A stretch of 64,000 nt of DNA from Candidatus Ruthia endofausta (GTDB taxonomy: Bacteria; Pseudomonadota; Gammaproteobacteria; PS1; Pseudothioglobaceae), in contig NZ_CP054490.1 of the NCBI RefSeq assembly GCF_013342985.1, positions 496,001 through 560,000 on the forward strand, read 5' to 3'. The notes under the pieces were generated by a model. That model did no database searches. It was not told where the DNA came from and saw nothing but the letters and a program-made list of their open reading frames with translations. Position 1 is the stretch's first letter. Every line of letters starts with the position of its first letter. Of this stretch, positions 55,206 to 62,777 are shown one piece after another. Made by a program: the position numbers and the translations under genes.

Positions 55206-55868
55206 ATGTTCTGGCAAGAAGACGCTAAAAAAGAACATTTTACGCTGCCTGAAACCATACAAAATGCAGTGTTCAATATTTATGCTAGAATTTTACCCAT
55301 TGATCATGGCTTTTTACTAGCACAAGCACTACTTAAACATTTGCCATGGCTTGATAAGGTGGGTGCTGGCATATTTAACATCAGTGTCGCAGATGGTAAC
55401 GGCTGGATGCAAAACCACGAAGATGGATTTTATTACCCCTCTAAACGCTCAAAACTAACCATTAGAGTGCCAAAAAATAAGCTAAACAAGGTCCAGCAAT
55501 TACTTGGAAAAACACTAGATTTAGGCGAATACCAAATAGACGTTATTAAATCTTTAAAGCCAAAATTACTTAGCGACATGCCTGTATTGTTTGCAAAAAG
55601 TATTGCTTGTGACAAGGAAATGAGTGAGGAGGATTTCTTGCAAGTTACTTTTGAAGACCTAAAAATGCTTGGTATTTCTGTTAAAAAAATAATGGCTGGT
55701 CTTGAGAATAACATTAAAACTGACACTAGTACTATCCACACCCGCTCGCTAATGGTGGCTGATTTAAAAAAAGATGAATCAGTATTATTACAAGAAAAAG
55801 GTCTTGGTGATTATCGGTTATTAGGTTGTGGTTTGTTTATTCCACACAAAGACATCACAAACATCTAA
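55206..55868 (+). CDS. Cas6-like (Cmx6-type) protein with no CRISPR locus nearby
   Basis: The 220-residue protein resembles the Cas6/Cmx6 group. It opens with a strand and a conserved DHG motif (ILPIDHGFLLAQALLKHLPWL), has a central RSKLTIRVPKNKL strand, and ends with a glycine-rich loop (GLGDYRLLGCGLFIPHK). Cas6 proteins process CRISPR RNA. No repeat array and no other cas gene is visible in the 64 kb. Orphan relatives of this type occur in free-living sulfur oxidisers by my recollection. The family call is by pattern. It stands alone, divergent from rnc. Confidence 0.6.
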   Translation: MFWQEDAKKEHFTLPETIQNAVFNIYARILPIDHGFLLAQALLKHLPWLDKVGAGIFNISVADGNGWMQNHEDGFYYPSKRSKLTIRVPKNKLNKVQQLLGKTLDLGEYQIDVIKSLKPKLLSDMPVLFAKSIACDKEMSEEDFLQVTFEDLKMLGISVKKIMAGLENNIKTDTSTIHTRSLMVADLKKDESVLLQEKGLGDYRLLGCGLFIPHKDITNI

Positions 55869-55928: not shown

Positions 55929-56542
55929 TTGTGTATACTTTGATACTATTATTTTCTTTAGCTTGTCTCATTTTCATCTGTTGCAATTGAACTCTCGAAA
56001 GAAGGTGAATTTTTAGGTGCCAAGGTCGTTGATGAGGCGCCTAATCGGTTCAAAGCTTCTTTTATGAATTTTTCTGAAGATTTAGAAGAGACGACAGACA
56101 ATAATAACCATGTGATGATTTACTTTCATCAAAATAGTTGTCCTTATTGCGTCAAATTGGTTAAAGATAATTTTCATAATCTCTCTCTTTGGTCGCCAAA
56201 TTACAAAAAGATAAAACAGGCAATCTTAATCAAGACCCATTATCTGAAACACCACCACACATGCTATCTCGCAATAAAATCTTGCCTGCGCAAAATTATT
56301 ACCCCATCAAGAAAAGGAACTACTGCTAAAATGGTATGAGAATCTGAAACTTAATTTATAAATCGGCCATTATGTTTTACGTTATCAGGAAAGATGCTTT
56401 TAAGAGCTTATCACTTCCACAGTATTATGACTTATACGTCACTTCAGGGGATTACAAATATCAGCCAAACTTTCAGCGTTATATAGAAGATAAGTCAGAT
56501 AAACTTCGTGCTCAAGGCATTACAATGGATATTTGGAAATAA
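55929..56542 (+). pseudogene. secreted thioredoxin-like (SoxW-type) protein, broken
   Basis: After a hydrophobic leader interrupted by a frame change (LILLFSLAC), the frame reads ELSKEGEFLGAKVVDEAPN and DLEETTDNNNHVMIYFHQN, then the active-site motif SCPYCVKLVK. Then the frame is lost. A final open piece (YDLYVTSGDYKYQPNFQRYIEDK) runs to a TAA at 56540-56542. The CPYC motif and leader suggest a periplasmic thioredoxin of the SoxW kind. The middle cannot be reconstructed. Confidence 0.65.
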
Positions 56543-58232: not shown

Positions 58233-58538
58233 TTATTCAGAGCAGAACACTGTTTGTATATTAGACACCAATTTTAGAACTTTTGCGTCTTTAACTTTGC
58301 ATAATATTTTATTACCATCACGCCGAGATTCGACAATATTCTTAGTTCTAAGAATGTCAATATGTTGTGAAATATTAGATTGTGAAGAGCCAACTTTTTT
58401 TACAATTTCTAATACGGGTAATTCGTCATTTTTTAGTGCGCATAAAATCTTTAAACGCAGCGGATGTGCCATTGCTTTTAAAGCTCTTGTTGCTTTTTCA
58501 ATATCTTCTTCTTTTTCTAATAATGTTATTTTGCTCAT
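58233..58538 (-). CDS. ArsR-family regulator with a possible persulfide-sensing Cys pair
   Basis: This 101-residue winged-helix repressor has the ArsR fold: ALKAMAHPLRLKILCAL, then VGSSQSNISQHIDILRTKN (recognition helix) and the wing RRDGNKILCKV. It lacks the metal ligands of ArsR/SmtB in helix 3. Two Cys, one in LKILCALKND near residue 32 and one in QTVFCSE near the end, match the pair that senses persulfide in SqrR/BigR regulators. A third Cys in the wing is extra. The target is unknown. The MlaC-like gene lies 28 bases upstream on the same strand. Confidence 0.8.
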   Translation of the reverse strand: MSKITLLEKEEDIEKATRALKAMAHPLRLKILCALKNDELPVLEIVKKVGSSQSNISQHIDILRTKNIVESRRDGNKILCKVKDAKVLKLVSNIQTVFCSE

Positions 58539-59148: not shown

Positions 59149-59213
59149 TTTTTTCTCCATTTTTTTAAAAAAAACCAATGTAAAATTCAAAATAATAATA
59201 TTGGTTTCATAGT

Positions 59214-59279
59214 ATTATATTTAAACTTTCTATAAACAAATTATTATATTTAAACTTTCTATAAACAAATTATTATATT
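59214..59279. repeat. 29-bp tandem duplication upstream of ctpA
   Basis: Two perfect 29-bp copies (59214-59242 and 59243-59271) lie head to tail, with an 8-base start of a third copy ending directly at the ctpA ATG. Each copy carries an A/T-rich TATAAAC-type element. No spacer separates the copies, so it is not a CRISPR. An inverted repeat (AAACCAAT at 59172-59179, ATTGGTTT at 59200-59207) lies beside it in the same divergent promoter region. Confidence 0.9.
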
Positions 59280-60620
59280 ATGACTTTTTTGAACTTTTTT
59301 AAATATTCACTATTTTTAACGCTTTTTTATACACTTTTTGGCATTTATACACCCACATTAGCTAAAAGCGATGCTGAAAAACAAAAAATAGAAGCTTTTT
59401 TCAAAGATCTTGAGACATTTACGGCTGTTTTTAGCAATATTAAACAGTTGTACGTTGATAATGTCGATAATAAAAAACTATTTAACCATGCTATTAAAGG
59501 TATGGTCAGTGGATTAGACCCGCATTCAAGCTATCTTGAGCCCAAAGAACAGAAAAATCTGCTTGAAAGTGCCTTAGGTAAATTTGGAGGTCTTGGTATT
59601 GTTATTGGCATGAAAAATGAGGCCATTCAAGTTATTTCTCCTATTGACGATACGCCCGCCTATAGAGCCGGCATCCAAGCGGGCGATTTAATCGTAAAAA
59701 TTGGTGATAAGCCAGTACGTGGCATGACTTTGGAGGATGGTGTTGAGTTAATGCGTGGCAAAGCAGGTACTGATATCCAAATTACCATTGTGCGTAAAAA
59801 TAAGAAACCGTTTGTTGTTAATATTACTAGAGAAATTATTACCATTATCTCGGTTAAAGGCTATTTACTGGAAAAAAATATTGGCTATATACGTATCTCT
59901 AGCTTTCAAGATCCAACAGCAGAACTATTCAAACAGACTTTTAATGATTTGATTGAAGAAAATAATGCCCAACTTAGCTCATTAATTCTTGATTTGAGGA
60001 ACAATCCAGGCGGTATTTTGGATAGTGCAGTTGATATATCAAATTTATTTCTTGACAAGAAAGGACTGGTGGTTTACACCAAAGGTAGAATTCCAAGCTC
60101 AAATCTTAAATTCAAAATAAAATCAGGTGACATCATGCAAGGATTACCTATTGTTGTACTAATCAATGAAGGCTCAGCTTCTGCATCAGAAATTGTTGCA
60201 GGCGCATTGCAAGACCACAAACGCGCCATTATTATGGGCAGTACTTCGTTTGGAAAAGGCTCGGTGCAAACCATTCTTGAGTTTCAAAAAGGCTATGGAC
60301 TTAAACTTACAACTGCCAGATATTACACACCAAATGGACGCTCTATTCAAGCCAAAGGTATTGTGCCTGATATTGAACTAAAGAACATTAGTCTAGAAAA
60401 TGAAGCAGAAAAATCAGTGATTGAGACTAAAGAAAAAGACCTTGATGGTCACTTGGAAGTTGAGGATCCTTCTAAACTCTCTTCTAAAGAAATACTAAGC
60501 GCCCAAGAAAAAAACAAAGAAAAACAAAACAGAATAAGTATTGAAAAATTAAAAAAAGATTATTTTGTACACGAGGCCACAATTTTATTAAAAGCTTTAA
60601 CGGTTTTAAACAGCCAATAA
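59280..60620 (+). CDS. CtpA/Prc carboxyl-terminal processing protease
   Basis: This is a secreted S41 serine protease that trims C-termini in the periplasm. A signal segment (LFLTLFYTLFGIYTPTLA) precedes a PDZ domain (about residues 85-165, with GFGGLGIVIG). The catalytic Ser-Lys pair lies in NEGSASASEIVAGAL and TSFGKGSVQTI. The 446 residues match the short CtpA group. No Shine-Dalgarno site is seen: the ATG follows the tandem repeat directly. A Lys/Glu-rich tail closes it. The dead parA follows. Confidence 0.93.
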   Translation: MTFLNFFKYSLFLTLFYTLFGIYTPTLAKSDAEKQKIEAFFKDLETFTAVFSNIKQLYVDNVDNKKLFNHAIKGMVSGLDPHSSYLEPKEQKNLLESALGKFGGLGIVIGMKNEAIQVISPIDDTPAYRAGIQAGDLIVKIGDKPVRGMTLEDGVELMRGKAGTDIQITIVRKNKKPFVVNITREIITIISVKGYLLEKNIGYIRISSFQDPTAELFKQTFNDLIEENNAQLSSLILDLRNNPGGILDSAVDISNLFLDKKGLVVYTKGRIPSSNLKFKIKSGDIMQGLPIVVLINEGSASASEIVAGALQDHKRAIIMGSTSFGKGSVQTILEFQKGYGLKLTTARYYTPNGRSIQAKGIVPDIELKNISLENEAEKSVIETKEKDLDGHLEVEDPSKLSSKEILSAQEKNKEKQNRISIEKLKKDYFVHEATILLKALTVLNSQ

Positions 60621-61135: not shown

Positions 61136-61501
61136 ATGGAAAAGATTTCAAAACTAGGGCGTAGATTGGATATATTATCAGGACAAGTGCCTGCTAAAAG
61201 CAAGCAAGCTGCTTCCGAAAACAACTTAAAAATGTTAAATATTGGTTGGTTGTAAACAAAGAAAGTTCCAGTCTAGAAAGGACATTGACCCCGATACGCT
61301 AAATGAATTAGCCAAAAAAGTGTTTAATCCACTCCCTAAAAATCAACTTCAATCGAGCCATGTATTTTAGAGCTAATACAAACTTTAAGTAAAAAGCTAG
61401 CCTCAAAAACTGAAATTAAACCAAATGACAATCAAGGAAAAATTATTATTCATTATCAATCAATAGATGAGTTGGATAATATTCCAAATTACATTAACTA
61501 A
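61136..61501 (+). pseudogene. parB partition protein, broken
   Basis: It starts MEKISKLGRRLDILSGQ, as expected for a ParB N-terminus. Only scraps of the central part remain (a shifted DIDPDTLNELAKKVFNPL). It ends in frame with DNQGKIIIHYQSIDELDN, close to the ParB C-terminus, at a TAA at 61499-61501 that overlaps the lepB stop. Most of the DNA-binding middle (about 200 residues in the family) is deleted. It follows the dead parA. Confidence 0.8.
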
Positions 61502-62382
61502 TCAAAGCCACCGATTCTATCAAGCTTTAAAGATTCATCCCAGTGCATCCAAATACCAAACGCTTTACCAATAATGTATGATTCTGGCACAAAACCCCAA
61601 AAACGAGAATCACTACTACGAGCACGATTATCACCCATCACAAAGTAATGCTTTTCTGGTACAGTTAGTTCTACACTTTTAGAGTGTTGATTTGGATCTA
61701 GCAAAATATGATGCGGGTTATTGTCTAATAATTCACGCTTATGCTTAAAGCCCGTCATGATTAAGCCCGATTCAACACCTTGATACACACCAATATTTTT
61801 ATTATTAATTTTTACACCATTCACATACAAACTATCTGCACGGTAAATTATCTTATCACCCGGAATGCCAATGACACGCTTAATAAAATCAGCACCCTGA
61901 TATTTTGATTTTTTTTCATAATTAGGATACCTAAATACAACAACATCGCCCCTTTCAGGCTTTGAAAACTCGATTATCTTTTTATTTAAAATTGGAATAC
62001 TAACACCATAATCAAACTTTGATACCAAAATAAAATCGCCTGTTAATAAGGTTGGCATCATTGAATTTGAAGGAATTCTAAAAGGCTCAATAACAAAGCC
62101 TCGAAGTACAAACACTAATAGCAATACTGGAAAAAACTCAGCCGACCATTGTACTATTTTAGGGCGATCTAGATATTTTTCAAATTTGTTAAAACGTAAA
62201 AATAAGGCAAAATGGACAAACCTCCCCAAGGTTGATTTTTTCGTTTTATCTGCAACTGGCGTTTGCGTATGACTAAAGAATAATTGATCAATCATCACAA
62301 TAACAAAAGCCAGTGTTAAAAATAAAGCCAAGAATGAAGAAACATCCCATGCAAAAAAAGGTGAAGCGTTTTCAATTGTCAT
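61498..62382 (-). CDS. lepB: LepB, signal peptidase I
   Basis: This membrane protease removes signal peptides. Two N-terminal membrane segments (FLALFLTLAFVIVMI and FFPVLLLVFVLRGFVI) are followed by the catalytic Ser in IPSNSMMPTLLTGD (near residue 105) and the catalytic Lys in GADFIKRVIGIPGDK. The C-terminal GDNRARSSDSRFWG motif is intact. The ATG at 62382 is preferred over an in-frame TTG 21 bases upstream. It is divergent from the DsrC-like gene. Confidence 0.95.
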   Translation of the reverse strand: MTIENASPFFAWDVSSFLALFLTLAFVIVMIDQLFFSHTQTPVADKTKKSTLGRFVHFALFLRFNKFEKYLDRPKIVQWSAEFFPVLLLVFVLRGFVIEPFRIPSNSMMPTLLTGDFILVSKFDYGVSIPILNKKIIEFSKPERGDVVVFRYPNYEKKSKYQGADFIKRVIGIPGDKIIYRADSLYVNGVKINNKNIGVYQGVESGLIMTGFKHKRELLDNNPHHILLDPNQHSKSVELTVPEKHYFVMGDNRARSSDSRFWGFVPESYIIGKAFGIWMHWDESLKLDRIGGFD

Positions 62383-62401
62383 AATAAAAATAAGCGAATT
62401 C

Positions 62402-62433
62402 AAAAAGTAATTATTATATAATAATTACTTTTT
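62402..62433. promoter_or_regulatory. perfect 32-base palindrome between lepB and the DsrC-like gene
   Basis: A perfect inverted repeat (15-base arms AAAAAGTAATTATTA at 62402-62416 and its complement at 62419-62433, with a 2-base centre) lies between two divergent genes. It could be a shared operator. It may also form a cruciform or RNA hairpin, but the A/T content makes it weak as a terminator. Its centre is about 30 bases before both start codons. Confidence 0.6.
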
Positions 62434-62450: not shown

Positions 62451-62777
62451 ATGGCATTAGCTGATTTAGAAAGAGATAATTATGGTTACCTAAAAGATCT
62501 TAATGAATGGAATGAAGACATTGCTCGTGAGTTAGCAGAAGAAGAAGGTGTCAACTTAACAGATAACAGCTTTAAATTAATTAATTTTTTACGTGGTGAA
62601 TACATCAATAACAACGCCAACCAGCCTAACGAGCGCAACATGGTCAAAGGCTTAAAAGATGACTGGAAAGGTAAATTAAGCACTAAAGAGTTATACGTAT
62701 TATTTCCAAAAGGTCCTGCCAAGCAAGCAGGTAAAATTGCTGGACTGCCTGAAACTAAACGCAAAGGTGGCTACTAA
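62451..62777 (+). CDS. DsrC/TusE-superfamily protein lacking both conserved cysteines (RspA-like)
   Basis: The 108-residue protein follows the DsrC fold over its whole length (LNEWNEDIARELAEEEGV near residue 20; FLRGEYINNN). In DsrC a Cys lies in the motif KQACKIAGLPKP and a second is next to last. Here the motif reads FPKGPAKQAGKIAGLPETK and the tail ends KRKGGY, so both are absent. It therefore cannot carry sulfur as DsrC or TusE do. Cys-free relatives (named RspA) are thought to be regulators. The ATG at 62451 follows a GGAG site. Confidence 0.85.
   Translation: MALADLERDNYGYLKDLNEWNEDIARELAEEEGVNLTDNSFKLINFLRGEYINNNANQPNERNMVKGLKDDWKGKLSTKELYVLFPKGPAKQAGKIAGLPETKRKGGY

Follow-up and report, generated by a model that had tools for sequence, protein, structure and literature searches.

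The closest described relatives of the protein reported here are the Cas6 protein of a type I-B CAST (solved structures 8fcj and 8fcu) and the Cas6/Cmx6 protein of type I-MYXAN systems, which are recognized by adjoining cas genes together with a repeat array. Two further points of reference come from sulfur metabolism: the rDsr system of sulfur oxidation (dsrABEFHCMKLJOPNRS), and the DsrC/TusE family, whose DsrC members have two conserved C-terminal cysteines (Cys). DsrC binds DsrAB. Venceslau and coworkers in 2014 are said to have given the name RspA to relatives of DsrC that lack these Cys residues, and to have proposed a regulatory role for them. Binding of DsrC to DsrEFH is the subject of a title in the reference list of PMC3368242, and the accessible part of that paper mentions four further DsrC-family genes whose role is unsettled. 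A link between Cas6 and dsr genes was not found in the literature searched, where subscription papers were mostly outside the scope, so that such a report may exist; it is not described in the accessible parts of PMC5728499, PMC10952691, PMC3368242, and PMC3575380.

In the 64-kb stretch of DNA analyzed here (the window), we examined a gene for a Cas6-like protein, referred to as Cas6L. Its features are collected in table 1, together with those of a second gene of the same strand that encodes a Cys-less member of the DsrC family.

Table 1. Features of Cas6L and of the Cys-less DsrC-family protein in the window
Feature	Position	Strand	Remark
Cas6-like protein (Cas6L)	55206..55868	+	220 aa, ORF uninterrupted from its ATG
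N-terminal M-[FY]-W-x-E type motif of the Dsr-linked lineage	55206..55223	+	W3 invariant in 23 rows of alignment A1
His34 of D-H motif, candidate catalytic His	55305..55307	+	His in 154/155 Dsr-linked rows
Phe57, site mostly His across the lineage	55374..55376	+	H 135/155, F 17/155
G-N-G-W loop of the Dsr-linked lineage	55395..55406	+	G66 and W67 in 155/155 rows
C-terminal glycine-rich loop of Cas6L (GLGDYRLLGCGLF)	55800..55838	+	Conserved glycines in alignment
Cys-less DsrC-family protein	62451..62777	+	108 aa, end PETKRKGGY; PF04358 101.8 bits; homologue of the usual Cas6L neighbour elsewhere
RKGGY tail replacing the DsrC redox-cysteine tail	62760..62774	+	RKGGY in 20/20 rows of A3

Profile searches placed Cas6L within the Cas6 family. 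It scored 151.3 bits against PF09559 (Cas6; cut-off 26.7), 106.5 bits against the NCBIfam profile TIGR02807 (cas6_cmx6; cut-off 98.85), and 214 bits against the Cas6 model of PADLOC. The AlphaFold2 model, built with 58 sequences, had a pLDDT of 90.8 and a pTM of 0.86. Its closest solved fold is the CAST Cas6 8fcj_B (Z 24.7, rmsd 2.3, 198 residues aligned), the best Foldseek match is 8fcu, the Cas6 of a type I-B CAST (E 6.7e-16), and five further Cas6 entries match at Z 14–16. The likeness to the CAST and I-MYXAN proteins thus comprises the fold over nearly the full length, the family profiles, and the glycine-rich loop. In this loop, G199, G207, and G209 are present in all 155 distinct Dsr-linked rows of our alignment and G201 in 154 of them, and all four glycines are also found in the four cyanobacterial Cas6 rows aligned. 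Profile scores, fold match, and conservation exclude chance as the source of the Cas6 match. The preliminary description of this DNA had proposed an intact protein of the Cas6/Cmx6 group that keeps the C-terminal glycine-rich loop, and both points are borne out by the profile and structure comparisons, by the uninterrupted reading frame, and by the conserved glycines.

The gene was found as a single copy in a single-contig genome of 1.19 Mb, whose size, gene content, and dsrAB suggest a clam symbiont of the Ruthia/Vesicomyosocius type as the host. Among ten genomes of its own genus, the median dN/dS was 0.19 over 45 pairs (range 0.14–0.33). Cas6L is therefore kept under purifying selection and is not a leftover, in agreement with the earlier suggestion that the gene has been retained.

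We then considered the CRISPR context, for which Cas1 was searched across the genome and arrays and other cas genes within the window. The earlier statement that the window holds neither array nor other cas gene proved correct. No CRISPR-like array was found in the 64 kb when repeats of at least 20 nt, at most 200 nt apart, were considered; these settings returned seven families of direct repeats with two copies each. At gathering scores, an Rfam scan of the window yielded three tRNAs only. Besides Cas6L, a simple caller kept 63 ORFs of 90 aa or more in the window, and among the 60 of these scanned with PADLOC no cas gene was detected, apart from ArsR-type matches of one protein. This protein (58236–58538, 101 aa) accounts for the only CRISPR-labeled matches, to Csa3, CasR, and CARF models (best 60.8 bits), which we read as hits to the DNA-binding domain of an ArsR-type regulator and not as a cas gene. 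Matches of other ORFs to AAA, GTPase, methyltransferase, and cysteine-desulfurase models were taken for housekeeping relatives. Adjoining cas genes (60 of the 63 other ORFs scanned) and a repeat array, by which type I-MYXAN is recognized, were thus not found in the window. A CRISPR-cas locus elsewhere in the genome had been named as a point to check; for its Cas1 part, the profile search of the genome found none, and the same search was positive in 9 of 14 control genomes. With respect to mobile elements, no copies of Cas6L were found in phages or in viral contigs (19 pattern matches, none confirmed). Seven plasmid records contain Cas6L relatives, all of them cyanobacterial.

To define the distribution of this protein, we used PF09559 to search a class sample of 369 genomes and a family sample of 83 genomes, with matches in 118 and 49 genomes, respectively. 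The matches lie in one place per genome, except in G344, where the gene is in two pieces, and in G070, which has two places. DsrA was counted as present when its best E-value was below 1e-30. In the class sample, 111 genomes contain both Cas6L and DsrA, 7 only Cas6L, 8 only DsrA, and 243 neither (phi 0.91, Fisher 7e-75; shared ancestry of the genomes means that such co-occurrence P-values overstate the independent evidence). No association was seen with Cas1, for which the corresponding numbers are 50 (both), 68 (Cas6 alone), 85 (Cas1 alone), and 166 (neither; P-value = 0.13). The proposal that Cas6L has a role other than defense agrees with this pattern of tracking dsrA and not Cas1. Similarly, in the window's own family both genes are present in 45 genomes, each is alone in 4, and neither is found in 30.

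Contig ends explain the missing Cas6L in four of the eight DsrA-only genomes of the class: in G204 the contig stops within the gene cluster, right ahead of Cas6L, and in G191, G288, and G152 dsrA lies about 650 bases or less from a contig end. In another DsrA-only genome (G434), 1.75 kb upstream of dsrA were available and do not contain the cluster. Conversely, in the Cas6L-only genome G208 the contig stops inside the dioxygenase gene, past which dsrA would come. A separately drawn phylum sample, searched with alignment A1, was positive in 4 of 299 genomes, one of which is the window's own genome. In the three others, a more distant Cas6L is flanked by dsrA and by a DsrC relative with a GKGGY end; the tail of this relative has no Cys in two of these loci and retains one in L194.

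Outside the window's own family, stretches of about 17 kb from the class revealed that Cas6L is usually part of a cluster divergent from dsrA. On one strand the usual order is dsrC, dsrH, dsrF, dsrE, dsrB, and dsrA; on the opposite strand follow a TauD-family dioxygenase, a 64-aa protein, sometimes a protein of about 250 aa, Cas6L, a DsrC-family protein, and a protein of about 70 aa. Names of the dioxygenase, the DsrC-type proteins, and DsrA were taken from Pfam and NCBIfam, and dsrE, dsrF, dsrH, as well as rnc, era, recO, pdxJ, and acpS around the window gene, were named by reading the sequences. Among the best 80 of 581 confirmed loci, all with named records, the 64-aa protein was found in 74, the DsrC relative in 73, the dioxygenase in 70, DsrA in 65, the 250-aa protein in 38, and the 70-aa protein in 35. 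Of these best 80 loci, 60 offered at least 4.5 kb ahead of Cas6L, and dsrA was found there in 52 of the 60. Examples of class stretches that lack dsrA are L075, L080, and the Beggiatoa-type loci L135, L157, and L161. In the same best 80 of 581 loci, the genes for the 250-aa protein, which precedes Cas6L, and for the 70-aa protein, which follows the Cys-less DsrC, are nearly mutually exclusive, occurring alone in 37 and 34 loci, together in one, and not at all in eight. With respect to the rDsr system as described, this module shares its inheritance with dsrA and in most lineages is oriented divergently to it, and its genes are not named among the dsr genes in the accessible part of PMC3368242.

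In the window's own family, the Cas6L gene is unlinked from the dsr genes. The window genome nevertheless contains Cas6L, the Cys-less DsrC, the 64-aa gene, a homologue of the 250-aa gene (251 bits), and the dioxygenase gene, the last three intact at about C1:948.7–957.9 kb. The parts are intact and lie apart, so this lineage has broken up the cluster without losing them. Within the own genus, Cas6L, DsrA, the Cys-less DsrC, the 64-aa protein, and the dioxygenase are all present in 12 of 12 genomes. In genus g5 (29 genomes, DsrA absent at our threshold), Cas6L, the Cys-less DsrC, and the 64-aa protein are likewise absent from all genomes at our thresholds and the dioxygenase is found in three. 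The model of the 64-aa protein has three helices and a pLDDT of 86. Over 61 loci, protein distances of Cas6L correlated with those of the dioxygenase (0.78), DsrA (0.55), and the Cys-less DsrC (0.40, a modest value); the DsrA–DsrB correlation, for comparison, was 0.85. The preliminary description had called Cas6L an orphan. This holds for the CRISPR context, none of which was found, and does not hold for the gene neighborhood, considering the constant dsrA context outside the own family and the presence of the partner gene in the window. Taken together, Cas6L represents a Cas6-family branch that is inherited along with the rDsr sulfur-oxidation genes and in most cases lies next to them, and it is almost certainly one part of an accessory module of the rDsr system.

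Some other features of the surroundings were also recorded. Directly after Cas6L (56064–56539), a thioredoxin-like gene remains in fragments; its relatives in L089 and L090 encode about 343 aa. L088 and L091 likewise have this gene in pieces, and little of it survives in L087 and L092, in contrast to the conserved Cas6L. Two tandem 29-nt copies, 93 percent alike, lie at 59208–59265 ahead of the gene at 59280. A comparison of 41 stretches showed the ArsR-type regulator retained close to Cas6L in 18 of them.

The Cys-less DsrC of the window lies 6.6 kb from Cas6L and is one of three DsrC-family genes in the genome. It scores above the cut-offs of both PF04358 and TIGR03342, and it differs from the DsrC/TusE family by its RKGGY end and by the loss of the two conserved C-terminal redox Cys, which are absent from its tail. 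This loss is general: among the best 80 of 581 loci, the last 25 residues are free of Cys in all 71 DsrC-relative matches above 100 bits. When the protein was counted as present at an A3 match of at least 110 bits, 48 of the 83 genomes of the family sample contained both Cas6L and the Cys-less DsrC and 33 contained neither, with one exception each way. Its median dN/dS was 0.08 (range 0.014–0.55; 36 pairs, nine genomes). The Cys-less gene might be among the four further DsrC-family genes mentioned in PMC3368242. A perfect A+T-rich palindrome of 32 nt (62402–62433) is located in the divergent gap that separates the Cys-less DsrC gene of the window from a signal peptidase I-like gene (61498–62403, minus strand).

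To compare the lineage with known Cas6 proteins, we aligned the 155 distinct Dsr-linked sequences and four cyanobacterial ones, with three distant relatives excluded. In an unrooted tree of 49 proteins (42 Dsr-linked, two of them distant, and seven cyanobacterial, with the CAST protein outside the set), the Dsr-linked proteins are split from the seven cyanobacterial ones by a branch with support 100/99. Of these seven, all from plasmid records, six adjoin cas3; around the seventh (Gloeobacter), the 6 kb shown on either side carry no annotated cas gene. In contrast to the CAST and I-MYXAN proteins, Cas6L is tied to dsr and not to cas genes, its lineage is mostly acidic, and it has a GNGW loop and an M-[FY]-W start of its own. 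Residues typical of the lineage (n = 155) are W48 (151), G66 (155), W67 (155), R81 (155), and K215 (154). W48, W67, and K215 occur in none of the four cyanobacterial rows, which have gaps at the site of W67, and G66 and R81 occur in three and one of them, respectively. The GNGW loop is missing from the distant relatives L186–L188, which lie outside the 155.

The candidate catalytic residues are distributed unevenly. His34 is also present in all four cyanobacterial rows, and Asn is found at the aligned place in the CAST Cas6 8fcj. At site 57, besides the His and Phe of table 1, the lineage has Leu, Gln, and Pro once each; all 17 Phe rows, including that of the window, come from genomes of the window's family. 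The CAST Cas6 has His at this place and none of the four cyanobacterial rows does. His57 had been suggested as the catalytic residue by the CAST alignment and was dropped, since the cyanobacterial proteins lack it. Cyanobacterial and CAST Cas6 therefore differ in which His is kept, and the window protein has His34 together with Phe57. Because this His34/His57 pattern conflicts among relatives, RNA cutting by the window protein is only a candidate activity. With respect to charge, median values across the Dsr-linked proteins are 5.9 for pI (4.8–9.4; above 7.5 in 17 of 155) and -5 for net charge, and the whole window protein has pI 7.0 and net charge 0, versus pI 9.3–9.5 and charges of +6 to +10 in the seven cyanobacterial Cas6 proteins.

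We also analyzed the regions upstream of dsrA. In 60 of 83 loci, the 420 nt ahead of dsrA contain a dyad, TATCCC-N4-GGGATA (at most two mismatches), versus 0.9 expected from base shuffles. For the window's family, 12 promoters were read, and the dyad precedes dsrA in all of them; it does so in none of the three distant loci. In the loci inspected, CACCCCAWGGGTAGG-like and CTAGACT words commonly come after the dyad, with CTAGACT exact in 36 of 77. The layout recurring upstream of dsrA in L062–L181 is TATCCC-N4-GGGATA, CACCCCAWGGGTAGG, CTAGACT, a leader of about 90–320 nt, and dsrA. A related element, CCCAWWKGGGATATRG, is present ahead of the 70-aa gene that follows the DsrC relative, and GGGATAT occurs in 18 of 46 unique gaps before this gene, with 0 expected. 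Given the dyad before dsrA and the related element in the module, the module and the dsr genes look co-regulated. As the sites precede promoter-like words, the dyad looks like a DNA and not an RNA element, most likely a DNA operator. In the window, it was not found directly before Cas6L or the Cys-less DsrC; the 64 kb contain no site that matches with at most two mismatches. It is possible that the ArsR-type regulator at 58236–58538 reads the dsr operator. Upstream of dsrA in the window's own genome (L203), there is an inverted repeat with perfect arms of 28–30 bp that doubles this operator-like dyad; in eleven other promoters of the family, the longest such arm is 15 bp (L207), and none reaches 10 bp in the other ten.

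The dsrA leaders (n = 54) were folded and found to be little better than shuffles on average, with a mean z of -0.6, and hairpins differ between clades, so that these leaders revealed no RNA target common to the family. Eight of the 54 reach a z of -2 or below (L065, L070, L073, L108, L111, L131, L136, and L150). The leaders of L065, L126, L139, and L148 have a common long hairpin whose arms differ in sequence yet pair. In the first rows of the other module gaps, no shared hairpin was seen by eye.

These results suggest that the window protein belongs to an exapted Cas6 lineage serving sulfur oxidation, in which a CRISPR-processing part was taken over for energy metabolism. The best overall explanation, which we hold tentatively and at just under an even chance, is that Cas6L and the Cys-less DsrC form a pair that tunes dsr expression by acting on dsr-related RNA. 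For the separate parts of this explanation, a regulatory role of Cas6L is evenly balanced, and action through RNA is possible and falls somewhat short of that. Both Cys are gone from the partner, which therefore cannot carry sulfur now; it may sense the state of DsrEFH and DsrAB as a dummy ligand. Cas6L, presumably paired with it, would bind and perhaps cut dsr-related RNA, and the pair would adjust dsr expression to the sulfur supply. The change of job would be reflected in the missing cas context and in the lower basic charge. The RNA reading is based on the Cas6 fold, the glycine-rich loop, and the kept His34. Against the pair and its action on RNA stand the change of charge, the weakly structured dsrA leaders, the DNA-like character of the dyad, the conflicting His pattern, the modest correlation of Cas6L with the Cys-less DsrC, and, in the window's family, the missing linkage to dsr. 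The preliminary description had suggested another RNA target for Cas6L; the acidic lineage and the dsrA leaders do not bear this out. The loop and His34 would be needless for a pure scaffold and argue against a role of Cas6L as a scaffolding or chaperone protein for the Dsr machinery that has no RNA job and takes part, with the Cys-less DsrC and the dioxygenase, in the assembly, maturation, or inhibition of Dsr enzymes. Taken by itself such a role is rather unlikely, and it is still a serious rival, nearly as likely as the RNA reading, because most Dsr-linked proteins are acidic (pI at most 7.5 in 138 of 155 rows) and CRISPR-type Cas6 proteins, such as the cyanobacterial ones, are basic. It is also favored by the lineage-specific W48, W67, and K215, and by a partner that shares the fold family of DsrC, a binder of DsrEFH and DsrAB.

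Two other explanations appear less probable. The module might act on tRNA or another RNA tied to sulfur transfer, as in Tus-type thiolation, with Cas6L holding the RNA and the DsrC/TusE-like partner docking sulfur-relay proteins. The membership of the partner in the TusE/DsrC/DsvC family and the homology of DsrEFH to TusBCD are consistent with this idea, which is made improbable by the Cys-free tails of the partner, by the tracking of DsrA, and by the fact that tRNA thiolation is not confined to Dsr genomes. That Cas6L is a CRISPR remnant, or a Cas6 working in trans on a distant array, would account for its Cas6 sequence and fold and for the cas3 genes beside its cyanobacterial relatives. It is very improbable in view of the missing association with Cas1, which was also not found in the own genome, of the dsr gene context, and of purifying selection within a reduced genome.

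If the preferred reading of a regulatory pair is followed, a CRISPR-processing fold was captured by sulfur lithotrophs and forms, together with a sulfur-incapable DsrC, an unrecognized control unit of the rDsr pathway, important enough to be kept, though dispersed, in reduced symbiont-type genomes of 1.0–1.6 Mb; we give this view an even chance of being right. Because the naming model TIGR02807 scores Cas6L above its cut-off, a sulfur oxidizer may be credited with a CRISPR part, and Cas6L is instead a marker of the rDsr pathway. The module adds a conserved, uncharacterized gene set to a main route of sulfur oxidation and makes dsr regulation testable through a few knock-outs and one promoter motif, and Cas6L provides a clear case of a CRISPR-type protein exapted for metabolism.
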